From Gelidibacter pelagius (GTDB lineage: Bacteria > Bacteroidota > Bacteroidia > Flavobacteriales > Flavobacteriaceae), in the NCBI RefSeq assembly GCF_017581925.1, contig NZ_JAGEVG010000019.1:1-64000 (forward strand): 64,000 bases of DNA, written 5' to 3'. A program made the position numbers and the translations under genes. Shown here one piece after another: positions 84-63,836 of this stretch (position 1 is the stretch's first letter; each line of letters starts with the position of its first letter). The notes beneath the pieces were generated by a model. That model was not told where the DNA came from, made no database searches, and saw nothing but the letters and a program-made list of their open reading frames with translations.

Positions 84-980
84 CTATTCCTTTTTACTTC
101 CTGGTTTTATCGGATACATGGTTTGCTTGACAAATGTTTTTGGAAAATCGTCTTCGTCATGAAATCCAAGTTCAATATCCCTTCCATCATGTGGTACATG
201 ATGTGTGTTGAAAATATAATCCCACAGGCTTAAAGTTAATCCGTAGTTCATACCATACTTTTTATGCTCTGGTAATTCTTTAACATGATGCCAGATATGC
301 ATTTTCGGATTGTTGAAAATGTATTTCAACGGCCCGTAATTCCATCCTAAATTGGCGTGGTTCAAATGTCCAATCACGATGGAGAAAAAGTAAACAATGG
401 AAACATCCTGTACATTGAAACCTCCAATTATGGCAACAGGGATGTATAATATAGAATTATAGACCACTGGTTCCATCCAATGGTAGCGCAAATGTGCGGC
501 AAATCCCATTTCTTTAACGCTGTGATGTACTTTATGGAAATTCCACAACCACGGTACACGATGCAATAAGATATGAGTATTCCATTGAACAAAGTCGATG
601 ATCAAAAAGAAGATCAGTAACCCCAACCATTTTGGTAATTCGCTCACACTAAAAATCTGTAAACTATCTACATGCCAACCAAAAAGGCCAAGGATATCAT
701 TGAAGAACTCTGCCGTAGTATTGGAGAGAGCAATGAGTACAATCAAATTCAGTAAGAAGAAATTGAAGAACATATAAAAGGTATCCAACCAAAAATCCTT
801 TCTGAATATGGATTGGTTTTTGCGCCACGGAAACATAATTTCCAATAGCCAAACCACTAAGGAAATCACGATTAAACCATAAAAATAATTGTCCCAATGG
901 TAAACGTGCGTTAACTCATATTTGAGATAACGCCAATATCCAGAGTAGGATTTTAAAATAATGTCGATGTATTTTTCCAT
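84..980 (-). CDS. Sterol desaturase / fatty acid hydroxylase family membrane protein
   Basis: A 298-residue polytopic membrane protein of the di-iron fatty acid hydroxylase superfamily. Three histidine boxes that would hold the two irons are visible: HILLH at residues 136-140, HKVHH at 149-153 and HIWHH at 228-232. Hydrophobic stretches lie near residues 34-50, 68-86, 117-133 and 172-205. The family oxidises C-H bonds in lipids such as sterols, sphingolipids, carotenoids and alkylglycerols. The substrate here cannot be read from sequence, and a sterol is unlikely for this group. The ATG at 980 lies only six bases from a repeat hairpin beginning at 986, so the native promoter may have been displaced by the repeat. 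The 83 bases before the gene's stop at the window edge show nothing I recognise. Confidence 0.85.
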   Translation of the reverse strand: MEKYIDIILKSYSGYWRYLKYELTHVYHWDNYFYGLIVISLVVWLLEIMFPWRKNQSIFRKDFWLDTFYMFFNFFLLNLIVLIALSNTTAEFFNDILGLFGWHVDSLQIFSVSELPKWLGLLIFFLIIDFVQWNTHILLHRVPWLWNFHKVHHSVKEMGFAAHLRYHWMEPVVYNSILYIPVAIIGGFNVQDVSIVYFFSIVIGHLNHANLGWNYGPLKYIFNNPKMHIWHHVKELPEHKKYGMNYGLTLSLWDYIFNTHHVPHDGRDIELGFHDEDDFPKTFVKQTMYPIKPGSKKE

Positions 981-1284: not shown

Positions 1285-1842
1285 CTATTCTATATATAAT
1301 TTTTCGATGTCTTTATTCATCAAAAGCTTTCTTTGTTTATGAACATATTCAAAATTTTTGAGGTTGTCGAACCAAGAAATTACCTCTTCTCTTTTCAGTT
1401 TAGTCGCTGAATTTGATAAAAATGAATTGTAAGAAGAATATGGATACTTTGAGAAATCAATGTTCTTATTATGATGCTCAGGATTCAGATGAATATATAA
1501 AACAAGTGATCTTAAATAATCTTCTTTATTTATCTTGATTCTTTTAAATGGTTTTTGAAATATACTTCCAGTTCGATGATATTTTAAATTCATGGCTTTG
1601 GTATAAGCGTTAAATAAATTTGAAAACTGCTGTGAAGGGTATGATAAATTGTCATTAATTCTCAATAACAAATGGAAATGATTAGGGAGAAGACAATAAC
1701 AAAATATACTACAATTTGGCTCTATGTGTTTTTTAAGAAGTTTTAGAAAATACAAATAGTTAGCATGTTCAAAAAAAATGTCTTCTCGATTATTTCCTCT
1801 ATTATAAATGTGATAGTAATGACTCTCTTCAATTCTTTCCAT
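1285..1842 (-). mobile_element. REP-associated tyrosine transposase (RAYT, Y1_Tnp/IS200-like)
   Basis: A 185-residue single-strand DNA transposase of the HUH/Y1 type. The metal-binding HUH motif is in LLPNHFHLLLRI (about residues 52-63). The family signatures YHRTGSIFQKPFKR and YIHLNPEHH follow. RAYTs are single-copy host-kept relatives of IS200 transposases that act on REP palindromes rather than moving themselves. The context fits: its stop codon is 13 bases from a palindrome at 1249-1271 and its start is 43 bases from a full copy at 1886-1914. More copies lie at 2174, 2532, 2826 and 21064. The reading frame is intact, so it may be active. No IS-type ends or target duplications were found. 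Confidence 0.88.
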
Positions 1843-1885
1843 TATGCTTCAATTTTTTCCATTATGAAAGATTTAATTAAACAAG

Positions 1886-1914
1886 ACCTTTCAGGTTTTG
1901 AAAACCTGAAAGGT
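1886..1914. repeat. 29-bp palindrome P, likely REP target of the RAYT
   Basis: A near-perfect inverted repeat with arms acctttcaggttt / aaacctgaaaggt. Other copies are at 2174-2202, 2532-2560 and 2826-2854. A truncated copy is at 1249-1271 and a mutated one at 21064-21094. This copy lies just upstream of the transposase start. Confidence 0.85.
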
Positions 1915-1929
1915 AAACCTGAAAATACT

Positions 1930-1977
1930 TTACAAACTCTTAATCGATTTCCTAAACAATAAAATCATATCCGGTTC
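1930..1977 (-). pseudogene. punA 3'-end copy 1 (15 codons plus stop)
   Basis: Read on the minus strand this 48-bp piece gives EPDMILLFRKSIKSL and a stop. The real PunA C-terminus is EPDMIVLFRELIKNL. It is the most diverged of the three copies and the furthest from the gene. It has no start codon of its own. Confidence 0.8.
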
Positions 1978-2218
1978 CGTAAATTCCTGCGCAGGCAGGA
2001 ATCTCATAATTCAAACGATTAAAACGACTTTCTTCTAAAAGGTAAATCTCATATGGTTAGTATTATAGTTGTATTTTTAATAACTACTTACACATATTCC
2101 CTTTTCCAAAAATATGAATTTTGTTTTTCGATTTTACGGAGTTTGCGAAATGCTGTTTGAATTCAGCCGATAAACCTTTCAGGTTTTTAAAACCTGAAAG
2201 GTCTCTGCCTTAAATATT

Positions 2219-2266
2219 TTACAAACTCTTAATCAACTCACGAAACAACACAATCATAGCCGGTTC
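2219..2266 (-). pseudogene. punA 3'-end copy 2
   Basis: Minus-strand reading gives EPAMIVLFRELIKSL and a stop, two residues different from the gene. It is bounded upstream by the hairpin at 2272-2291 and downstream by palindrome P at 2174-2202. Confidence 0.82.
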
Positions 2267-2576
2267 CGTAAATTCCTGCGCAGGCAGGAATCTCATAGTT
2301 CAAACGTTAAAAATACCTTTCGTTTGAAAGATAAATTCCATATAACTTGTATTATAGTCGTATTTTTAATAAATGCTTACGCATATTTCCTTGTCCCAAA
2401 ATATGAATGTCGTTTGCTGATTTCACAGCGCTTTCTGCTCTAAATAAAATCTCTGAATCTTCATTTGAAAAAAATTATTGACGGCAAAGCCTTCAGGCTT
2501 CACCCAAATTTTAACAAAGTTTAATTGGGATACCTTTCAGGTTTTTGAAACCTGAAAGGTCTCTGTCTCGGATATT

Positions 2577-2624
2577 TTACAAATTTTTAATCAACTCTCG
2601 AAACAACACAATCATATCCGGTTC
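2577..2624 (-). pseudogene. punA 3'-end copy 3
   Basis: Minus-strand reading gives EPDMIVLFRELIKNL and a stop, identical in protein to the last 15 residues of PunA. At the DNA level it matches the gene end and its following palindrome over 86 bp with one difference. Confidence 0.85.
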
Positions 2625-2870
2625 CGTAAATTCCTGCGCAGGCAGGAATCTCATAATTCAAACGATTAAAACGACTTTCTTCTAAAAGGCAAATCTCACA
2701 TGGTTAGTATTATAGTTGTGTTTTTAATAATTACTTACTTACGTCTATTCCCTTTTTCCAAAAATATGAATTCTGTTTTTCGCTTTTACGGAGTTTGCGA
2801 AATGCTGTTTGCATTCAGCCGATAAACCTTTCAGGTTTTTGAAACCTGAAAGGTCTCTGTCTCGGATATT

Positions 2871-3683
2871 TTACAAATTTTTAATCAACTCTCGAAACAA
2901 TACAATCATATCAGGCTCTGCTTTTTCCGCCATGGCAATAATTTCCGAAATATCTACAGGTTTCAGATTGCTTGGATCACATTCATCGGTCAAAACTGAC
3001 ACTGCTGCTACTTTTAATTTTAAATGATTGGCCACAATAATTTCAGGGACCGTACTCATTCCAACGGCATCCGCACCTATGATTTTTAACATGCGGTACT
3101 CTGCTCTTGTTTCCAACTGAGGTCCGACTACACTTGCATAAACACCTTTGTGAAGCGTGATGTTGTGGTTTTTGGCAATTTGCTCAAATTTGGAATTGAT
3201 TTCCGCATCATAAGGAGCACTCATATCCGTAAAGCGCTCACCCAAATGTTCTACACCTTTAAACGCCAAAGGTGAACTTCCTTGCAAATTAATGTGATCT
3301 TCAATGAGCATCAATTCTCCTTTCTTGAAATTGAGATTGATCGCTCCGGATGCATTGGATACCAAAAGCGTATGAATGCCCAGTTTTTCCATAATGCGAA
3401 CAGGGTAAGTCACATCTTGCAGTGAATAGCCTTCATATATATGAAAACGCCCTTGCATGATGATGGCTTTTTTATCTTCTATAATTCCGTAAATCAACTT
3501 TCCTTTGTGAAATTCAACCGTTGCCGTGGGGAAATTCGGAATATGGTTGTAGCTGACTTCGTGAAGGATTTCTACGGCATCGATCAATTGACCCAATCCG
3601 GTACCGAGGATAATGCCGATTTCTGGATTTTCAAAGCCCTTCTTTTGTAAGTACTCTGTAGTTTCGTTGATGAATTTTATCAT
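2871..3683 (-). CDS. punA: Purine-nucleoside phosphorylase (trimeric PNP/MTAP type)
   Basis: A 270-residue enzyme that splits purine nucleosides with phosphate into base and ribose-1-phosphate. The phosphate loop GTGLGQL is at residues 27-33. GADAVGMSTVPE is at 203-214, and the base-binding Glu of LETRAEYR is at 191. Asp233 (in LTDECD) sits where inosine/guanosine-specific PNPs have Asn243 (human numbering); Asp there is found in MTA phosphorylases and loosens specificity toward adenine. The gene overlaps the arsenosugar glycosyltransferase stop by 4 bp (ATGA-type coupling), so it belongs to that operon. It may remove adenine from the ArsS product, which is my inference. Its 3' end is copied three times downstream. 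Confidence 0.92.
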   Translation of the reverse strand: MIKFINETTEYLQKKGFENPEIGIILGTGLGQLIDAVEILHEVSYNHIPNFPTATVEFHKGKLIYGIIEDKKAIIMQGRFHIYEGYSLQDVTYPVRIMEKLGIHTLLVSNASGAINLNFKKGELMLIEDHINLQGSSPLAFKGVEHLGERFTDMSAPYDAEINSKFEQIAKNHNITLHKGVYASVVGPQLETRAEYRMLKIIGADAVGMSTVPEIIVANHLKLKVAAVSVLTDECDPSNLKPVDISEIIAMAEKAEPDMIVLFRELIKNL

Positions 3684-20610: not shown

Positions 20611-21128
20611 AATTGAAATGTAGTAATATAGTGGATGTGTTTTGGTAAAATTAAGAACTACTCCGGTAAAACAAGCTCAAAAATTAAATTATGTCTGAAA
20701 TTTCATGCCATTCTCATGAATCCATTGGATTCATACGTTTCTTGCTATTTGGTTCGACCCCGCTGGGGTCGCATGTAATTTCTATTTTGCTTCAAAGATT
20801 CCATCCCTACGGGATTTGTTGATGATTTTGTGAAGATTGGATTTAGCTTCCTTTGTTTGGCTGTTTTTATTTATGCCGTTGTTGGTGTTTTCTACCAACA
20901 ATATTTTATATTAAAAGCACTTGCATTTTACGAAACAAATCAAAACCATTTTAAATCCCAGCAGCTGAAAAAGCCAATATCCTGAATCCGCAGGATTCAA
21001 ACATTTATAGGAATTTAGTATGTGGATTGCTCCCGACCCCAGCGGGGTCGCACCTATGATTAAGACCTTTCAGGTTTTTAAAGCCTGAAAGATCTTTAAA
21101 AAGATTCCGTTTCAATTTCTTCCGATAG
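20611..21128. repeat. Palindrome cluster in a 518-bp spacer
   Basis: No gene is present. Six palindromes occur: gaatccattggattc (20717-20731), cgaccccgctggggtcg (20754-20770), atccctacgggat (20802-20814), gaatccgcaggattc (20984-20998), cgaccccagcggggtcg (21034-21050) and a mutated copy of palindrome P (21064-21094). The gaatcc/cgacccc pair occurs twice in the same order, about 270 bp apart. Confidence 0.8.
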
Positions 21129-45599: not shown

Positions 45600-45611
45600 A
45601 AATTAGATTTT

Positions 45612-47195
45612 ATGAGTCAAGAGAAAGATCTCGGATTAATCACGCATCTTGCCAAACGTGGTATAGATGACAAAATGGTAATGGGGCATCCAGCAGGATT
45701 GTTCGTGTTGTTTTTCACTGAAATGTGGGAGCGTTTTAGTTATTATGGAATGCGTGCGTTGCTCGTTATATTTTTGGTTAGTCAGGTGGCTGATGGAGGA
45801 TGGGAATGGTCCCGATCAGAAGCCATGAATCTCTTTGGACTTTATACCATGTTGGTTTATTTTACACCGTTGTTAGGTGGCATTATAGCCGATAGATTTA
45901 CGGGGTTTAGAAAAGCAATAGTTTGGGGTGCCGTTATTATGACATTGGGACATGCTTCCATGGCACTTGAAACGATCAATCCTAATTTTTTCTACATCGG
46001 TCTAGGTCTGATGATTTTAGGAAATGGGATGTTTAAACCTAATATTTCCTCTATGGTAGGTCAATTATACCCCGACAACAGTACTAAAAAAGATGCTGGA
46101 TACACCATTTTTTATATGGGTATTAACGCTGGGGCGTTCTTAGGCATGTTGTTGTGCGGCTATATCGGAGAGAAAGTAGGTTGGCATTACGGTTTCGGTT
46201 TGGCTGGAGTATTCATGATGTTTGGTGGACTACAATTTTATTTTGCCACTAAGTTATTTGGAGTTGTAGGGGAATCACCAAAGGAACATAAGGAATCAGT
46301 TAAAACAGGTGTTGAAGAAGAAGAAGAGGAAATACTTCCAAAAAATGTTGTTAGGGATCGTTTGATTGTTGTGGGAGTGTTGATGTTTTTTAGCATCTTC
46401 TTCTTCCTTTCCTTCGAACAGGCTGGAGGATCCATGAGCATTTTTGCACTTGATTATACCCAACGCGTTCTGCCAGGAGATGCTGGAACGATATTTATGT
46501 GGGTTGATACTATATTAACATTATTTCCCTTGGTTATAGTGACTTACGTTTTGTGGTCATTAGGCAAGAAGATTTATTCTAAATATCCTACCACAATAAT
46601 TTTCACCGCCATTTCGTTTTTAATTGTTTGGGGTCTTGGACTTTGGAAAATTGGACGTGAATTCAATGCTATTGAAACAGAAGTTACAGCTTCTTGGTTC
46701 CAAATTTTGAATTCATTCTTCATTATTACTTTAGCTTCGATTTTTAGTAAAATGTGGGAAAAAGTATGGAATCCACCAGGGCCGGTCAAATTTGCACTGG
46801 GCTTGATCTTGGTTGGAGTTGGATTTGCTGTTTTGGCTTACGGTGCCAAGGATATTCCACAAGGAGCACAAACAGCTTCGGTAAGTATGATTTGGTTAAT
46901 CGCAGCTTATTTTTTCCATACTACTGGAGAGTTGTGTCTGTCGCCCGTTGGTTTGTCTTATGTAAGTAAGCTTTCACCTAAAAAATTCGTAGGACTGATT
47001 TTCGGACTTTGGTTTACAGCTTCTGGAATTGCAAATGGCTTGGCAGGTTTTGGCGGCGGGTTGATTGATAGGATTGCTGAAGAGCACTCCCTGTCCTATT
47101 TCTTTGGAATATTTGCAGTAATGCCAGCTGCAGCAGGTTTCGTTCTGATATTGATTTCGCCAATTTTGAAGAAAATGATGCACGGAATTCATTAG
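45612..47195 (+). CDS. POT-family proton-coupled di/tripeptide transporter 1
   Basis: A 527-residue MFS transporter of the PTR2/POT family. The proton-coupling signature EMWERFSYYGMR is in TM1. FYMGINAGAFLGMLLCGYIG is the PTR2 motif in TM5. A cytosolic acidic linker (TGVEEEEEE) separates the two halves. It is expected to import dipeptides and tripeptides released by the S9 peptidase just upstream (12-bp spacing). A weak hairpin terminator follows. Confidence 0.92.
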   Translation: MSQEKDLGLITHLAKRGIDDKMVMGHPAGLFVLFFTEMWERFSYYGMRALLVIFLVSQVADGGWEWSRSEAMNLFGLYTMLVYFTPLLGGIIADRFTGFRKAIVWGAVIMTLGHASMALETINPNFFYIGLGLMILGNGMFKPNISSMVGQLYPDNSTKKDAGYTIFYMGINAGAFLGMLLCGYIGEKVGWHYGFGLAGVFMMFGGLQFYFATKLFGVVGESPKEHKESVKTGVEEEEEEILPKNVVRDRLIVVGVLMFFSIFFFLSFEQAGGSMSIFALDYTQRVLPGDAGTIFMWVDTILTLFPLVIVTYVLWSLGKKIYSKYPTTIIFTAISFLIVWGLGLWKIGREFNAIETEVTASWFQILNSFFIITLASIFSKMWEKVWNPPGPVKFALGLILVGVGFAVLAYGAKDIPQGAQTASVSMIWLIAAYFFHTTGELCLSPVGLSYVSKLSPKKFVGLIFGLWFTASGIANGLAGFGGGLIDRIAEEHSLSYFFGIFAVMPAAAGFVLILISPILKKMMHGIH

Positions 47196-47318
47196 TCTTG
47201 ATCTTATAAGCCATAAATCAATGTGAAAAATACTGTGTTAATCGATCTTGGATTGAAGAACAATTAGGGCTTTATAAAAAAGTAACGATAAAAACCGGAT
47301 GGAGTTTTTCTTATAAAG

Positions 47319-47340
47319 CAAGCAATGAGAATTGCTTGTT
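47319..47340 (+). terminator. Hairpin after POT 1
   Basis: Stem caagcaat / attgcttg with loop gaga, followed by tttt. A modest terminator about 120 bp after the gene, in the 291-bp spacer before POT 2, which otherwise shows nothing recognisable. Confidence 0.5.
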
Positions 47341-47486
47341 TTAATGAATATAAATGGATGTTGACCTATTTCATGGATGTTCAATGGAGGTTCATTTGAA
47401 ACTATAAAATGTAGATTATTTGTGATATTGGCAGATTCACAATAATTAATACACTATTTTTAAAATCTAAAATAATCTAAAATCTT

Positions 47487-49319
47487 ATGTCAACAACCGT
47501 ATCTCAACCCAGAAATCGCAAAGAAATCTTTGGGCATCCAGCAGGTCTTTTTATATTATTTTTCACTGAAATGTGGGAGCGCTTCTCATACTACGGGATG
47601 CGAGGGATTTTGGTACTGTATATAGCTACTTCTGCCACGGCAATTGATCCAGGATTGGGTTGGAGCAACAAGGATGCTATTTGGCTCTATGGCTGGTACA
47701 CCATGCTGGTTTATGTGGCTTCCATTCCTGGAGGTTGGATTGCCGATAAATTTTTAGGACAAAAGAAAACAGTGCTCTTGGGAGGGCTATTACTTTGTTT
47801 TGGTCATGGTATTCTGGCAATTCCACAAGACTGGGCTTTTTTCACAGGTCTTATCCTAATTATATTGGGTGTTGGCGGATTAAAACCTAACATCTCAACC
47901 ATGGTGGGTGGCCTATACCAAGAAGGCGATATTAGACGCGATAGCGGATTTACAATTTTTTATATAGGCATTAATATTGGTGCTTTCCTTGCCAGTATTA
48001 CCGTAGGGTTTGTAGCCTATTATTACGGATGGCATTATGGGTTTGGTCTTGCAGGTATCGGAATGCTGATTGGTCAAATCGTCTTTGTTTGGGGTCAGAA
48101 ATTCCTTAAAGGTGTTGGAGAGTTTTCTGGGGGTGAATCGGCAAGCGAGGCAGAAAAAATAGCCAGAAAGAAACCGCTAAGTAAAATAGAGAAAGATCGT
48201 GTTATCGTATTGCTTATTTCATTTTTGATTGTCATTGTTTTTTGGGGTGCCTTTGAGCAAGCTGGAGGTTTGATGAATCTTTATACCGATTCTAAAGTTG
48301 ACCGTACTGTTGGCTTGAGCTGGTTGGAAGAAATTCCTGCTGCCGTATTCCAATCTCTGAACGCAGGGTATATTATCATCTTCGGAACCCTCGTAGGTGG
48401 TTTTTGGATTTGGTGGAAAAAGAAAGGAAGAGAATCCTCGTCCTTATTTAAAATGGCTATTGGAACGATTATTATGGGCTTAGGATTTGTCTTTATGATG
48501 TTCGCCTCAAAAGAAGCAAGTGCTGAAGCTTTTGGAAAAGCCGCCATGTTCTGGATCTTTTTGGCATACCTATTCCATACGATTGGCGAACTATGTACCT
48601 CTCCGGTTTCTTTATCGTTTATCACCAAATTGGCCCCTCTCAAATATGCATCGATCATGATGGGTGTATATTTTGCAGCAACCGGTTTTGGAAATAGATT
48701 GGCGGGAAGTATCGGTTCGTCTTCGCAATTGGAACCGTTTCAAGGAGAAATGATTGTAAGCAAACAGGAGGTTATACCGTTTGTTTCTAAGGATTCCATG
48801 AAAATAAGAAATGCGCAAAAGAAAATCGTCACCATTTATGATTACCCGATCAATGAGGATAAGAATTTCAGTATCAAAGCAGAAGTTTTTGCTGAAAATG
48901 ATAAAGTCATTTACAAAGATGTAAAAAGTGGAGCAACGTTAAATGATCTTTTTGAATTGTCACAGAAAGCTGATGCCAATACCAACGAATTATTGACAAC
49001 ACTTAAAGAAGATGGGATTACCGCTTCTAATCCTTACCATGCCCGATTGGTTTTTGAAAAAGATAAGGACAAGGCGCAGAATTTGGAGAATAAAGGAGAC
49101 GGGAAAGATTATGGAGTGTCCTTTGTTTTAGAAGAAGATCAAAGTGCACAAGAGTATGCCACGTTTATGTGGTTGACAATTTTTACGGTAGCCTTTGGTC
49201 TACTTTTGATTGTGTTCTTGAAAAAGCTTAAGAAATTGACGCATGGTGCAGAAGATCATGAACACGAAATCAAGGACAATGAACCTTTTGAACTTGCAGA
49301 CCCTGACATTAATAACTAA
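47487..49319 (+). CDS. POT-family peptide transporter 2 with a large soluble insertion
   Basis: A 610-residue POT transporter with EMWERFSYYGMR in TM1 and FYIGINIGAFLASITVGFVA in TM5. Unlike its neighbours it carries about 130 polar residues between the last two membrane helices (about 410-550, including FVSKDSMKIRNAQKK and FVLEEDQSAQEYATF). By topology these face the periplasm. The His-containing tail is GAEDHEHEIKDNEPF. The insertion could bind peptides or another protein. The rest looks functional. Confidence 0.9.
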   Translation: MSTTVSQPRNRKEIFGHPAGLFILFFTEMWERFSYYGMRGILVLYIATSATAIDPGLGWSNKDAIWLYGWYTMLVYVASIPGGWIADKFLGQKKTVLLGGLLLCFGHGILAIPQDWAFFTGLILIILGVGGLKPNISTMVGGLYQEGDIRRDSGFTIFYIGINIGAFLASITVGFVAYYYGWHYGFGLAGIGMLIGQIVFVWGQKFLKGVGEFSGGESASEAEKIARKKPLSKIEKDRVIVLLISFLIVIVFWGAFEQAGGLMNLYTDSKVDRTVGLSWLEEIPAAVFQSLNAGYIIIFGTLVGGFWIWWKKKGRESSSLFKMAIGTIIMGLGFVFMMFASKEASAEAFGKAAMFWIFLAYLFHTIGELCTSPVSLSFITKLAPLKYASIMMGVYFAATGFGNRLAGSIGSSSQLEPFQGEMIVSKQEVIPFVSKDSMKIRNAQKKIVTIYDYPINEDKNFSIKAEVFAENDKVIYKDVKSGATLNDLFELSQKADANTNELLTTLKEDGITASNPYHARLVFEKDKDKAQNLENKGDGKDYGVSFVLEEDQSAQEYATFMWLTIFTVAFGLLLIVFLKKLKKLTHGAEDHEHEIKDNEPFELADPDINN

Positions 49320-49338
49320 TTATTTTGAGTAGCGTATT

Positions 49339-51126
49339 ATGAACACTGACATTGAAAACCTCTTTAAAGACACCGTTCTTGGGCATCCAATAGGCCTATT
49401 TATTCTCTTTTTCACAGAAATGTGGGAACGCTTCTCTTTCTACGGAATGCGAATCCTTTTGATCTTGTTTTTAACCGCGCCTTTAGTGAGTGATAATCCG
49501 GGTTGGGATTGGCCGCGTGAGCATGCCCTTTCATTAATTGGCACCTATGCATCACTTTTATATTTAACACCCATCATTGGAGGTTGGATAGCGGATAAGT
49601 GGACGGGTTACCGTATGGCCGTAGTTATTGGCTGTATCATTATGACGCTTGGTCACGCCGCAATGGCGCTTGAAACTACCATGTCATTTTATTTGGGTTT
49701 GGCCTTATTGGTACTCGGAACAGGATTTTTTAAGCCAAATATCACGTCGATAATCTCGGAGATGTACAAAACCAGAGAATCCAAAAAAGACGGCGCCTAC
49801 ACCATTTTCTATATGGGTGTCAATGCTGGAGCTTTCTTTGGAATGATGCTTTGTGGGTACTTAGCTGAAAATTACGGATGGGCCTACGGATTTGGACTTG
49901 CAGGGATTTTTATGTTATTGGGGATGTTACAGTTTCTATTGGCTCATAAAATATTTGGAAAAATTGGCGCAGCACCATCAAAGAAAATAGATGTGGTATT
50001 CCATGAAGGTGAAGATGTCACTGATCCGGAAGTTATTAAGGAGGAAGTCGAAGTTGCCTCAAAATTGAACCCATTTATTACATTTGACAAAATACTTATT
50101 GCATTATCATCGGTTGGGGGACTCATCTATCTTTTTAATGATCCAATCGAGAAAATCGGTGGAAGCACAATGTTGCCTTTTGAGTTCATGGGGATGAGTG
50201 GTTCAAATGTGGTCGTAATTGCCGCACTTGTACTTTTCCTAATATTGCTAATCATGCGGATTTCGCGCTATATTCCTATTGTTAGAGATCGTCTGGTTGC
50301 TGTTTCCATTTTCGCACTCTTCACAGTCTTCTTTTTTGCATTCTTTGAGCAATCCCTTGGATCAATGACTTTGTTTGCAAGTGACTATACCAATCGTGAT
50401 TTAACTGGAAATACAGCGACTATCTTTAAGATTGTTGACGGATTATTGACCACCATTCCGCTCATCATCATTACTTATGTTATTTTCTTGATTTTCAAAA
50501 AGACCTTTACAAAAATCGGGGCATCAAATATTGTGTTGGCTATCGCCTTCCTTGGCTTATGGATCCTTGTAATTTACCGTATTTACGACAAGTCTTTCTC
50601 TGAAGAATTGAAAGTTGATGCCACTTGGTTCGGAATCTTAAACTCATTCTTTATTATTACATTGGCACCCATTTTTTCAAAATGGTGGGAAAGCAAATAT
50701 AATCCGAGTGCGGCTATGAAGTATGCTCTAGGTTTGGTGTTGTTGGGTGTTGGATTTGCAGTTTTGGCTTACGGCGCATCAGATATTCCATCGGGAGCAC
50801 AAACAGCTTCCGTAAGCATGATTTTCCTAATATTGGCCTACCTGTTCCATACTATGGGCGAGCTTTGTCTATCACCACTAGGATTGTCGTATTTAAGTAA
50901 ATTAGTGCCAGCGCGTATGATCGGTTTCATGTTCGGGGTTTGGTATTTGGCAATTGCTGTTGGCCAAAAACTTGCGAACACTATGGGCGGTATGATTGAT
51001 AAGATCTCCGCTGAGTATTCTTTGGGAACCTTCTTTTTGATTTTCGCTGTCATTCCTATTGCCGTTGGTTTTGTATCCATGGTGTTGAATCCAGTTCTCA
51101 AAAAACTGATGCACGGGGTGAGATAA
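49339..51126 (+). CDS. POT-family peptide transporter 3
   Basis: A 595-residue POT transporter with EMWERFSFYGMR in TM1 (Phe in place of the usual second-last Tyr) and FYMGVNAGAFFGMMLCGYLA in TM5. Between the two halves are two more hydrophobic helices (about 245-262 and 285-310), as in bacterial POTs with the HA/HB pair. It starts 20 bp after POT 2, so the two are co-transcribed, and ends at a strong terminator. Confidence 0.9.
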   Translation: MNTDIENLFKDTVLGHPIGLFILFFTEMWERFSFYGMRILLILFLTAPLVSDNPGWDWPREHALSLIGTYASLLYLTPIIGGWIADKWTGYRMAVVIGCIIMTLGHAAMALETTMSFYLGLALLVLGTGFFKPNITSIISEMYKTRESKKDGAYTIFYMGVNAGAFFGMMLCGYLAENYGWAYGFGLAGIFMLLGMLQFLLAHKIFGKIGAAPSKKIDVVFHEGEDVTDPEVIKEEVEVASKLNPFITFDKILIALSSVGGLIYLFNDPIEKIGGSTMLPFEFMGMSGSNVVVIAALVLFLILLIMRISRYIPIVRDRLVAVSIFALFTVFFFAFFEQSLGSMTLFASDYTNRDLTGNTATIFKIVDGLLTTIPLIIITYVIFLIFKKTFTKIGASNIVLAIAFLGLWILVIYRIYDKSFSEELKVDATWFGILNSFFIITLAPIFSKWWESKYNPSAAMKYALGLVLLGVGFAVLAYGASDIPSGAQTASVSMIFLILAYLFHTMGELCLSPLGLSYLSKLVPARMIGFMFGVWYLAIAVGQKLANTMGGMIDKISAEYSLGTFFLIFAVIPIAVGFVSMVLNPVLKKLMHGVR

Positions 51127-54030: not shown

Positions 54031-54552
54031 CTATAAAACACGTCTTGCCTGTACGAAGGCAAAGTACCAATATTTTTCTGCAAGATTGGAAACTATGACG
54101 CCACTGCTGGTGCTTGCATGTATAAACTCTACGTTTCCATTATGAGCTTCCGTAACAATTCCCACATGATTAACATTTCTACTGTTCTTTCGTGTGGCAA
54201 AAAATAACAAATCGCCCTTTGTAACTTCTTTTAGATCCACCCAATCTCCAGTGGTTGATAAGTCACCAGTGGTTCTTGGCAAAGAAATATTTTCACTGTC
54301 AAAGGATGTTACTATTAACCCAGAGCAATCCATGCCTTTTCTTGTGGTACCGCCATATTTATATCTCACGCCGTCAAATTTGAGCGCATAATCCACCACT
54401 TTATCTGCTTGGGGATTGAAGGAAGTTGAAGCTGATTTACGAGCACGAGAATCGATTTTTGCAATCTTTGACTTTGTCGTCACAACCCGTTTAGAGGATT
54501 TACAGCTACTAAAAGTGATCAATAAAAGAAGGAGTAGGACAATCTTTTTCAT
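54031..54552 (-). CDS. NlpC/P60 (C40) peptidoglycan hydrolase lipoprotein, copy 1
   Basis: A 173-residue lipoprotein (lipobox FSSC, Cys17) with an NlpC/P60 domain. Catalytic Cys76 is in GMDCSGLI, His129 in NHVGIV and a third polar residue His145 in FIHAST. The enzyme cuts the D-Glu/meso-DAP bond in peptide stems. It is a near twin of the gene at 54634, and both follow one another on the minus strand. Confidence 0.9.
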   Translation of the reverse strand: MKKIVLLLLLLITFSSCKSSKRVVTTKSKIAKIDSRARKSASTSFNPQADKVVDYALKFDGVRYKYGGTTRKGMDCSGLIVTSFDSENISLPRTTGDLSTTGDWVDLKEVTKGDLLFFATRKNSRNVNHVGIVTEAHNGNVEFIHASTSSGVIVSNLAEKYWYFAFVQARRVL

Positions 54553-54633
54553 TTGTAGAAAGGTAATTTTTTATAAAAATATTAATTTATTACAACTTTG
54601 AGCAAAAAGTTCATTATTTAGTTGGAATAACTA

Positions 54634-55245
54634 CTATATCACACGTCTTGCTTGTACAAAGGCAAAGTACCAATATTTTTCTGCCATGTTAGAAACGATC
54701 ACGCCATGGTTGGTACTGGCATGGATAAATTCTACAAACCCATCTCTTGCCGTCGTAACGATTCCGACATGGCTTATGGTCTTGCTATTCTTACGGGTGG
54801 CAAAAAATAATAAATCGCCTTTACTGACCTGTTTTAAATCAATTAAGTTGCCGGTACGTGCCATATCTCTCGAGACTCTTGGCAAAGAAATATTTTCGCT
54901 GTCAAAAGTGGTGACTACCAATCCTGAACAATCCATGCCGTCTATTGTTGTGCCACCACGTTTGTACCTTACGCCATCAAATGCAAAAGCATAATCTACA
55001 ATTCTGTTGGCTTTTGTGTTAATAGTTTTTGGAAGTGCACTTTTAATATTCAGACTAAGAGGTTTTAAATCCACTGGGGTTAATTCAATACCATTGATAT
55101 CAATGGGGAGAATAGGGTTGGAGGTGGGTTTTACTGGCTTTGATTTAAGTTGGGCGACTTGGGATTTGGTCACCACAATATCCTTAGTAGAATTACAGCT
55201 GCTAAATGTGATGAATAAAAGAAGGAGTAAGACAATCTTCTTCAT
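54634..55245 (-). CDS. NlpC/P60 (C40) peptidoglycan hydrolase lipoprotein, copy 2
   Basis: A 203-residue paralogue of the preceding entry with triad Cys106, His159 and His175 and lipobox FSSC (Cys17). It differs by a 30-residue longer Pro-rich linker between the lipid anchor and the domain (KPTSNPILPIDINGIELTP). The ATG at 55245 is chosen because it gives the same signal peptide as copy 1. A frame from 55296 would add 17 residues before it. The 82-bp spacer between the copies and the sequence upstream share AT-rich pieces, pointing to a whole-gene duplication. Confidence 0.9.
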   Translation of the reverse strand: MKKIVLLLLLFITFSSCNSTKDIVVTKSQVAQLKSKPVKPTSNPILPIDINGIELTPVDLKPLSLNIKSALPKTINTKANRIVDYAFAFDGVRYKRGGTTIDGMDCSGLVVTTFDSENISLPRVSRDMARTGNLIDLKQVSKGDLLFFATRKNSKTISHVGIVTTARDGFVEFIHASTNHGVIVSNMAEKYWYFAFVQARRVI

Positions 55246-55353
55246 AAGGTTAATATAGCTTTTTATAAAAATAATCTTAGTTGTTATTCTATTCATAACA
55301 ACATGTTCATTAAACGCTGATCGAATTTCTAAAGTATAAAGTTTTTCGAAAAA

Positions 55354-63611: not shown

Positions 63612-63836
63612 GATCAAAAAATTTCCCTCCTTAATTTAAGGGAAGGTGGATTAAATTCCAGAAAAGGAATTTAAGAAGGAAGGGTAAACCTTATAGGTTT
63701 AAAAAGTAAACGGTCTAATTAAAAAGGAGATTCCTGCTTTCGCAGAAACGAATTCAGGTTAAAACAAAAACAATTCTTCCCAAGCCTGCATTGAGCGCAG
63801 TCGAAATGGGAAGATGTCCGTAGGACAGATGGGAAT
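63612..63836. repeat. Repeat-filled gap within the dcw cluster
   Basis: Three unrelated repeat-like elements lie in 225 bp. One is a folded piece with ttccctccttaatttaaggg and aggaatttaagaaggaaggg arms (63625-63687). One is gagattcctgctttcgcag (63728-63746), kin to the hairpin at 986. One is cctgcattgagcgcagtcga (63784-63803). No gene is seen. Confidence 0.6.

Follow-up and report, generated by a model that had tools for sequence, protein, structure and literature searches.

A short oriented hairpin repeat bounding local gene-end duplications in Gelidibacter

The punA array and its counterparts in the genus

We analyzed a stretch of 64,000 nucleotides from Gelidibacter pelagius (contig C14, positions 1-64000, of a 4.49 Mb genome; hereafter the window), in which the 3' end of the purine nucleoside phosphorylase gene punA recurs three times in the gap that separates punA from a fatty-acid-hydroxylase family gene (FAH). 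The order is cofC-like gene, punA, gap and FAH, all on the minus strand. Read in punA sense, the gap begins with the punA end, a 29-bp palindrome (PAL), a spacer and a short hairpin repeat (HP), and continues with repeats of punA-end copy, PAL, spacer and HP until a last HP at FAH. A RAYT gene lying between two PALs sits near the FAH end of the gap. The features are as follows.

2871-3683, minus strand: punA, encoding purine nucleoside phosphorylase, the gene whose 3' end is copied (NF006054, 337.6 bits, cut-off 218; PF01048)
2871-2918, minus strand: true punA end, last 15 codons plus stop
2826-2854, no strand: PAL behind the true punA end
2630-2652 (hairpin 2630-2649), minus strand: HP before copy 1, GAG followed by ATTCCTGC-CTGC-GCAGGAAT, its 3' foot 5 nt from copy 1
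2577-2624, minus strand: punA-end copy 1, 3 nt and 0 amino acid changes from the true end
2532-2560, no strand: PAL behind copy 1
2272-2294 (hairpin 2272-2291), minus strand: HP before copy 2
2219-2266, minus strand: punA-end copy 2, 7 nt and 2 amino acid changes
2174-2202, no strand: PAL behind copy 2
1983-2005 (hairpin 1983-2002), minus strand: HP before copy 3
1930-1977, minus strand: punA-end copy 3, 10 nt and 4 amino acid changes
1886-1914, no strand: PAL behind copy 3, also the 5' flank of the RAYT gene
1285-1842, minus strand: RAYT, Y1 transposase-like, between two PALs (PF01797, 23.7 bits, cut-off 23; NF047646, 49.1 bits, below its cut-off of 80)
1249-1277, no strand: PAL on the 3' side of RAYT, 2 mismatches, the fifth PAL of the array
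986-1008 (hairpin 986-1005), minus strand: HP 5 nt upstream of the FAH start codon, with no punA copy behind it, like the single HP of G. mesophilus
84-980, minus strand: FAH, beyond the array in 9 of 9 genomes (PF04116; synteny)

A first reading of the window from the sequence alone (the sequence-only reading) had described the three 48-bp copies, the same palindrome behind the true end and every copy, a hairpin at the upstream boundary of each copy and a divergence that grows with distance from the gene. All of this is confirmed, with a perfect HP before each of the three copies. The units are spaced by 289, 358 and 294 bp, and the segment 986-1278 belongs to the same repeat family, with 88% identity to 2272-2561. 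PAL has 6 matches in the window at up to 3 mismatches (mean of 0.00 in shuffled sequence), and HP has 5 matches at up to 3 mismatches (0.30 expected), four of them perfect; the fifth HP match, at 63730, is unrelated to the punA array. Of the open reading frames (ORFs) of at least 40 amino acids, the longest contained entirely in the units have 46 and 41 amino acids. A 39-amino-acid reading of the PAL-HP spacer matched only this locus, in 4 of the nine Gelidibacter genomes searched, and a distant donor for the spacer was rejected on this ground. The sixth PAL copy (2 mismatches) lies at 21065-21093, away from the array.

We compared this region in the window genome (G000), G. algens (G001), G. 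gilvus (G002), G. japonicus (G003), G. maritimus (G004), G. mesophilus (G005), G. salicanalis IC162 (G006), G. sediminis (G007) and a further Gelidibacter (G008). The order cofC-punA-gap-FAH is kept in all nine. Taken as the distance between the last sense codon of punA and the first FAH codon matched, the gap is 46 bp in G. salicanalis, 48 bp in G. sediminis, 51 bp in G008, 385 bp in G. mesophilus, 437 bp in G. algens, 753 bp in G. gilvus, 761 bp in G. japonicus, 1798 bp in G. maritimus and 1893 bp in G. pelagius. The last four contain punA-end copies, three each in G. pelagius and G. maritimus and two each in G. japonicus and G. gilvus. Thus, unit number downstream of punA differs between sister species, and the occurrence of copies in four separately deposited species genomes excludes an artefact of a single assembly. 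Among 80 sampled loci, punA-end copies were real in three, all from Gelidibacter; four more matches of 16-21 bp were taken as chance.

Every punA-end copy starts a few nucleotides behind the foot of an HP. The copied gene end begins ~48-51 bp before the end of the gene in G. pelagius, G. maritimus and the distal unit of G. japonicus, 66-73 bp before it in the proximal unit of G. japonicus, and 135 bp before it in G. gilvus (by DNA alignment; 52 codons by tblastn). The hairpin side is constant across these three endpoints and the gene side is variable; therefore the fixed point is the HP foot and not a site in punA. The length of 48 bp marks no fixed boundary, as it varies among species. The sequence-only reading had proposed that units inserted again and again at a single site close to the punA 3' end. 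A series of events at one locus, each leaving the gene end intact, is borne out, but the three gene-side endpoints contradict a fixed site inside punA.

Integrative elements at gene 3' ends restore the gene end after each event, and the punA array had been likened to them. The gene end is likewise restored here, but the units contain no ORF longer than 46 amino acids, far from integrase size, and there is no fixed attachment site, so that this analogy fails. An intact gene does not call for an integrative element, because a tandem duplication that starts inside any gene leaves that gene whole.

In G. mesophilus a single HP lies just before FAH with no punA copy, a layout suggesting that the HP at FAH predates the punA-end copies. 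In a tree of the units, the proximal unit of G. japonicus (unit 0) groups with the G. gilvus units (support 0.95), and the unit behind it (unit 1) groups with the gene-adjacent unit 0 of G. pelagius (support 0.99). Judged by this tree, a unit from another lineage makes up the present gene end in G. japonicus, with the older end downstream. The tree as a whole fits repeated addition beside the gene together with recombination between lineages. In G. maritimus the FAH 3' end is found twice (locus L039, 3706-3847 and 4014-4155, 86% identical) without a hairpin, which looks like a replaced gene end.

The hairpin repeat and the flanks copied beside it

HP is a short oriented hairpin repeat composed of RAG and an 8-bp stem with a 4-nt loop, ATTCCTGC-N4-GCAGGAAT. 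At up to 1 mismatch the G. pelagius genome contains 75 copies; a reversed-pattern control gave 0. When 38 copies of this genome were oriented by the loop alone, RAG was on the left in 32 and mirrored in none, so that the RAG orientation has an independent basis. The bases 5' of the hairpin are G at -3 in 29, A at -2 in 34 and G at -1 in 37 of the 38. Many HPs lie close to an ATG: 86 pattern matches, found in 6 of 9 genomes, have one no more than 12 nt away, with both sides counted and not checked against genes.

RAG-ATTCCTGC-N4-GCAGGAAT sites were collected completely from G. gilvus (55), G. japonicus (45) and G. maritimus (15), 112 of these 115 having distinct flanks; the HP sites of G. pelagius were sampled in part (26 loci with an oriented HP). 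The 80 nt behind each foot were sought within 1.3 kb upstream, and matches starting at most 15 nt from the foot were kept. By this measure the 3' flank was duplicated upstream for 38 of the 112 oriented HPs (15/55 in G. gilvus, 18/42 in G. japonicus and 5/15 in G. maritimus), one of the 38 (in L083) being a mere match to a neighboring HP. Random positions in the same loci gave 0 of 233. Counted per locus, with matches shorter than 25 bp dropped, 17 of 69 HP loci carried a duplication. Note that one cluster-biased HP sample was left out of all rates. Within a genome, no match between the flanks of a sampled HP and another sampled HP locus was longer than 137 bp (matches of at least 40 bp considered).

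Other genes with ends duplicated beside the same hairpin were looked for and found, so that the duplication is recurrent and more general than the sequence-only reading had held. In G. japonicus (L089, 1377-2433), the last ~33 bp of fba, encoding class II fructose-bisphosphate aldolase, recur together with a downstream stretch seven times behind an HP, the last copy being partial. In G. gilvus, a copied unit includes the first part of a GIY-YIG gene, with the HP antisense to the gene. The third case concerns an HMA domain of copA, the gene of a copper-translocating P-type ATPase (TIGR01511, 402.6 bits, cut-off 397; 895 amino acids of the protein covered).

The G. gilvus copA (L210, reverse strand, 1251-2024) has three HMA domains joined by two HP-type linkers, of which one encodes EIPASAGI and the other contains an enlarged loop. 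A 266-bp unit from the start codon to the HP is ~90% identical to the next unit, and there is no stop in the copA repeat frames. This case shows that an HP-bounded duplication can lengthen a protein by a domain without breaking the frame, the linker being encoded by the hairpin. In the copA of G. maritimus (L257) the linker between two HMA domains contains one enlarged HP; that of G. japonicus has three domains and one HP. The HMA linkers lack an HP in G. pelagius, G. algens, G. mesophilus, G. sediminis and G008, each with two domains, and in G. salicanalis, whose three domains show that copA domain gain does not need an HP.

At least one perfect oriented HP is found in 36 of 100 Flavobacteriaceae genomes, with G. 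pelagius among them. From eight genomes of other genera we sampled 60 loci that hold 68 of their 72 HPs. A single 3'-foot duplication was found (L303), which includes the first codons of a polyprenyl-diphosphate-synthase-like gene (NCBIfam matches below cut-offs) with the HP antisense; one 5'-foot duplication, in G094, was not terminal. The difference from Gelidibacter is clear by locus (17/69 vs 1/60, p=1.7e-4). GAYR, which on the other strand reads as a TGTC-like tag, follows the foot in 29 of 68 HPs of other genera and in 1 of 151 in Gelidibacter. Since the tag would lie right behind the foot, the duplication joint occupies the place of the tag. Among tag-less HPs, 38/112 are duplicated in Gelidibacter and 1/39 in other genera (p=3e-5); L303 has GATG behind its foot, and if it is scored as tagged the latter count becomes 0/39. 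Because tag-less HPs elsewhere are duplicated in 1 of 39 cases, tag loss alone fails to explain the difference between genera.

RAYT, PAL and related repeat systems

The window RAYT belongs to the Y1 family, with an NHFH motif in its sequence and a match to PDB 4er8 (E=0.006). The G. maritimus RAYT shares 92% identity with it, and eight relatives in the genus share 43-54%. Of nine RAYT-family loci scanned, six have the gene enclosed by two PALs at up to 4 mismatches (L184, L194, L198, L205, L206 and L208), L185 and L203 have PAL on one side, and L202 has none. Where G. pelagius and G. maritimus have PAL-RAYT-PAL, G. japonicus has a single PAL (L038, 1622-1650), a presence/absence difference between sister species. 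RAYT and PAL thus look like a small separate element that varies between species. In G. japonicus a RAYT 45% identical to that of the window lies right before copA with its own palindrome, AGACCTAACAG...CTGTTAGGTCT (L247, reverse strand, 589-1182).

The neighboring RAYT had been put forward as the enzyme of the array. However, a RAYT of this family occurs in only 2 of 69 HP loci (L039 and L247), and in the nine RAYT-family loci scanned a perfect HP was found at the two punA arrays only. A scan of 30 Y1-transposase loci, two of them the punA arrays, found no perfect HP at the other 28, three of which had an HP with 2-3 mismatches. Moreover, G. gilvus and G. japonicus have punA copies in a gap without RAYT. 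Judging from these distributions, the neighboring RAYT is probably a bystander. The unit boundary is the HP and PAL lies inside the punA unit; the fba array contains no PAL even with up to 6 substitutions allowed. PAL as the active repeat or boundary was rejected on these grounds.

We compared the arrays with described repeat systems. For RAYT substrates and cleavage the source is PMC8266576, and for Y1 transposase classes PMC6006769. The window RAYT with PAL has two traits of a REPtron, namely a Y1 HUH motif and its own flanking palindromic repeat, on both sides in the six family loci named above. HP has the shape of the perfect-palindrome REPs of REPtron/RAYT (TnpA-REP) systems, with a short perfect stem and a motif directly 5', but the motif is RAG rather than GTAG and there is no linked RAYT (PMC8266576). 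According to PMC3733652, CGTC REPs are reported from five phyla including Bacteroidetes, without a dedicated transposase and with units inside ORFs, and they rarely form groups except in Neisseriae and Wolbachia. HP resembles the family CGTC-1 described there in its 8-bp stem beginning with AT, its 4-nt loop and the lack of a linked transposase. It differs in that Gelidibacter HPs lack the CGTC/TGTC tag (1/151), although some HPs of other genera keep a TGTC-like tag. For the 3-nt tail, the consensus is CCA and HP reads CTC on that strand.

HP is very similar in sequence to the neisserial dRS3 hairpin (subtype Nf1, ATTCCCRCCTRCGCGGRAAK), and the arrays are close in layout to neisserial intergenic arrays of 30-160 bp units with dRS3 (PMC3898611, the source also of the following points). 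One neisserial array holds a 28-bp piece of a silent pilS 3' end, and silent 3' cassettes lie downstream of some genes; for the maf and fha cassettes, the passages considered do not describe bounding by dRS3. A phage integrase uses dRS3, whereas no such user is known for HP. Following the dRS3 analogy we considered an IS110-type recombinase; it was rejected, with matches in 4 of 9 genomes (G. gilvus, G. japonicus, G. maritimus and G008) and none in the HP-rich G. pelagius.

A close precedent is in Pseudomonas fluorescens SBW25, where REPIN/REP clusters are repeated in tandem with flanking sequence, three of them adjoining RAYT genes; in the passages considered, a second mechanism is postulated without a name for the clusters with copied flanks (PMC3116915). 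The HP arrays share the tandem repetition of REP plus flank, but have a fixed foot and copies of gene ends or domains, which those passages do not describe. The earlier statement that no described element does this was therefore too strong. Among the titles and abstract openings listed in searches of the open-licence literature, none describes duplications of gene ends or domains that have a hairpin foot at their fixed end.

Two further sets of paralogues lie in the window. Three consecutive paralogous oligopeptide:H+ symporter genes occupy 45600-51126, all above the cut-off for TIGR00924, and two adjacent paralogues at 54031-55353, 73% identical over 374 bp, are murein endopeptidase-like (NF008096 below cut-off).

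How the duplications may arise

The same anatomy, a fixed hairpin side and a variable gene side, recurs at other genes and in other species. We favor the reading, with a probability of roughly 0.6, that the 3' foot of HP is the fixed end of local tandem duplications made by replication-based template switching. The chemistry that we infer is as follows. HP would fold in single-stranded DNA at replication, and the new strand would be halted or nicked at the 3' foot. From the foot of the hairpin, whether folded or nicked, its 3' end would then re-prime upstream, so that a segment from a variable upstream point X to the HP foot is copied and joined (...X...HP|X...HP...). With an HP between punA and FAH, the copied segment would have included the last punA codons, PAL and the spacer, and punA would stay intact, since a tandem duplication leaves its first copy whole. 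Later units may have come from fresh duplications beside the gene and from recombination among units and with relatives, giving the arrays, with RAYT and PAL as passengers. The fixed 3' and variable 5' end had also prompted us to consider retro-copying of mRNA 3' ends, which was rejected, as the antisense HPs at the GIY-YIG gene and L303 disfavor copying through mRNA.

We analyzed whether duplication is one-sided by counting copies whose original has no HP before it. Of 143 oriented HPs, 36 had such copies at the 3' foot and 3 had them at the 5' foot. By locus the counts were 14 vs 3 (p=0.013); the 10 HPs with both marks gave none at either foot. These counts are suggestive of a one-sidedness that follows HP polarity. 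The HP-sense strand showed a weak negative third-position skew (mean -0.03, p=0.004, 88 loci, 33 positive), and at the 14 loci with terminal copies 10 values were negative, 1 was zero and 3 were positive, which is too weak to part fork direction from HP polarity.

Several observations weigh against the favored reading. The 14 loci include four punA and two copA entries, and by distinct site the count falls to ~10 vs 3 (p=0.09). The mirror-foot loci L038, L089 and L091 are all among the 14, the per-HP count adds L074, and the 10 HPs without the RAG marker give 4 at the 3' foot vs 2 at the 5' foot. When all duplications are counted, inner array copies included, the feet are nearly even (47 vs 38 of 143). 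The copies begin 0-11 nt from the foot, a narrow range that is partly built in by the 15-nt filter, and the repeat extends beyond the last HP by 62 bp in L061 and by 43 bp in L089, so that some arrays do not end at the foot. Microhomology was not significantly enriched at 14 hand-chosen junctions (P=0.07; 0.30 without L095). In the G. japonicus copA, similarity between the first HMA domain and those behind it is only ~70%, and this entry may be an old domain repeat rather than an HP event. Finally, the same HP gave a duplication for 1 of 68 copies in the eight genomes of other genera; the hairpin alone is therefore insufficient.

An enzyme may yet be involved, given that microhomology is lacking and the duplications are nearly confined to Gelidibacter. 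A HUH/Y1-type or other nuclease, distinct from the neighboring RAYT, might cut single-stranded DNA at the HP foot and rejoin it to a loose site, one-ended transposition leaving [X..HP] beside the donor. Such an activity would account for a fixed foot with a variable other end, for the junctions without significant microhomology, for the polarity (though this is weak by distinct site), for the contrast between Gelidibacter and other genera with the same HP, tag-less HPs included, and for a joint at the place of the GAYR tag. However, no gene was found linked to HP, given the Y1 loci without a perfect HP and the scarcity of RAYT at HP loci, the IS110-type recombinase is absent from G. pelagius, which has an array, and the flank comparison gave no sign of distant moves in the sample. 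We regard a nuclease of this kind as possible, with the odds against it.

It is unlikely that the arrays were made by ordinary tandem duplication and unequal crossing-over between copies of PAL or HP, with a hairpin boundary that is coincidental or inherited from one founding event. The mixed ancestry of G. japonicus units 0 and 1 speaks for recombination in later growth, and the original at L095 is preceded by CAGGAAT, perhaps an eroded HP. Yet at punA three gene-side endpoints meet one hairpin side, and the same foot bounds the copies at fba, the G. gilvus copA, the GIY-YIG gene and others. Moreover, the first copies at these sites have no recognizable HP in front, so that the founding join was not HP-HP recombination. 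The model of the sequence-only reading, in which RAYT inserts unit after unit at a single site close to the punA 3' end, is hardly tenable. RAYT does lie inside the array in G. pelagius and G. maritimus, and a RAYT of the family is found ~5-6 kb from punA in G. gilvus, G. mesophilus and G. salicanalis. However, punA contains no fixed site, PAL flanks most RAYT relatives, and G. japonicus has units together with a single PAL in place of PAL-RAYT-PAL.

In conclusion, the arrays are a variant of tandem amplification of REP plus flank that stands out by its unusual fixed-end signature; in one clear case a domain has been duplicated in frame. One end of each joint is the hairpin foot and the other is free; the joints are thus readable here, which makes the mechanism testable with respect to strand, foot and factor. 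The in-frame domain addition in the G. gilvus copA indicates that such duplication can feed gene evolution and not just spacer DNA. More tentatively, and on balance doubtfully, a tag-less hairpin of the CGTC/dRS3 type may be read with polarity by a putative Gelidibacter factor that repeatedly copies the DNA on its 5' side to a sequence-independent end, making spare gene ends and, in G. gilvus, the in-frame copA domain duplication. If true, such one-ended copying would give the CGTC REP class a missing activity.

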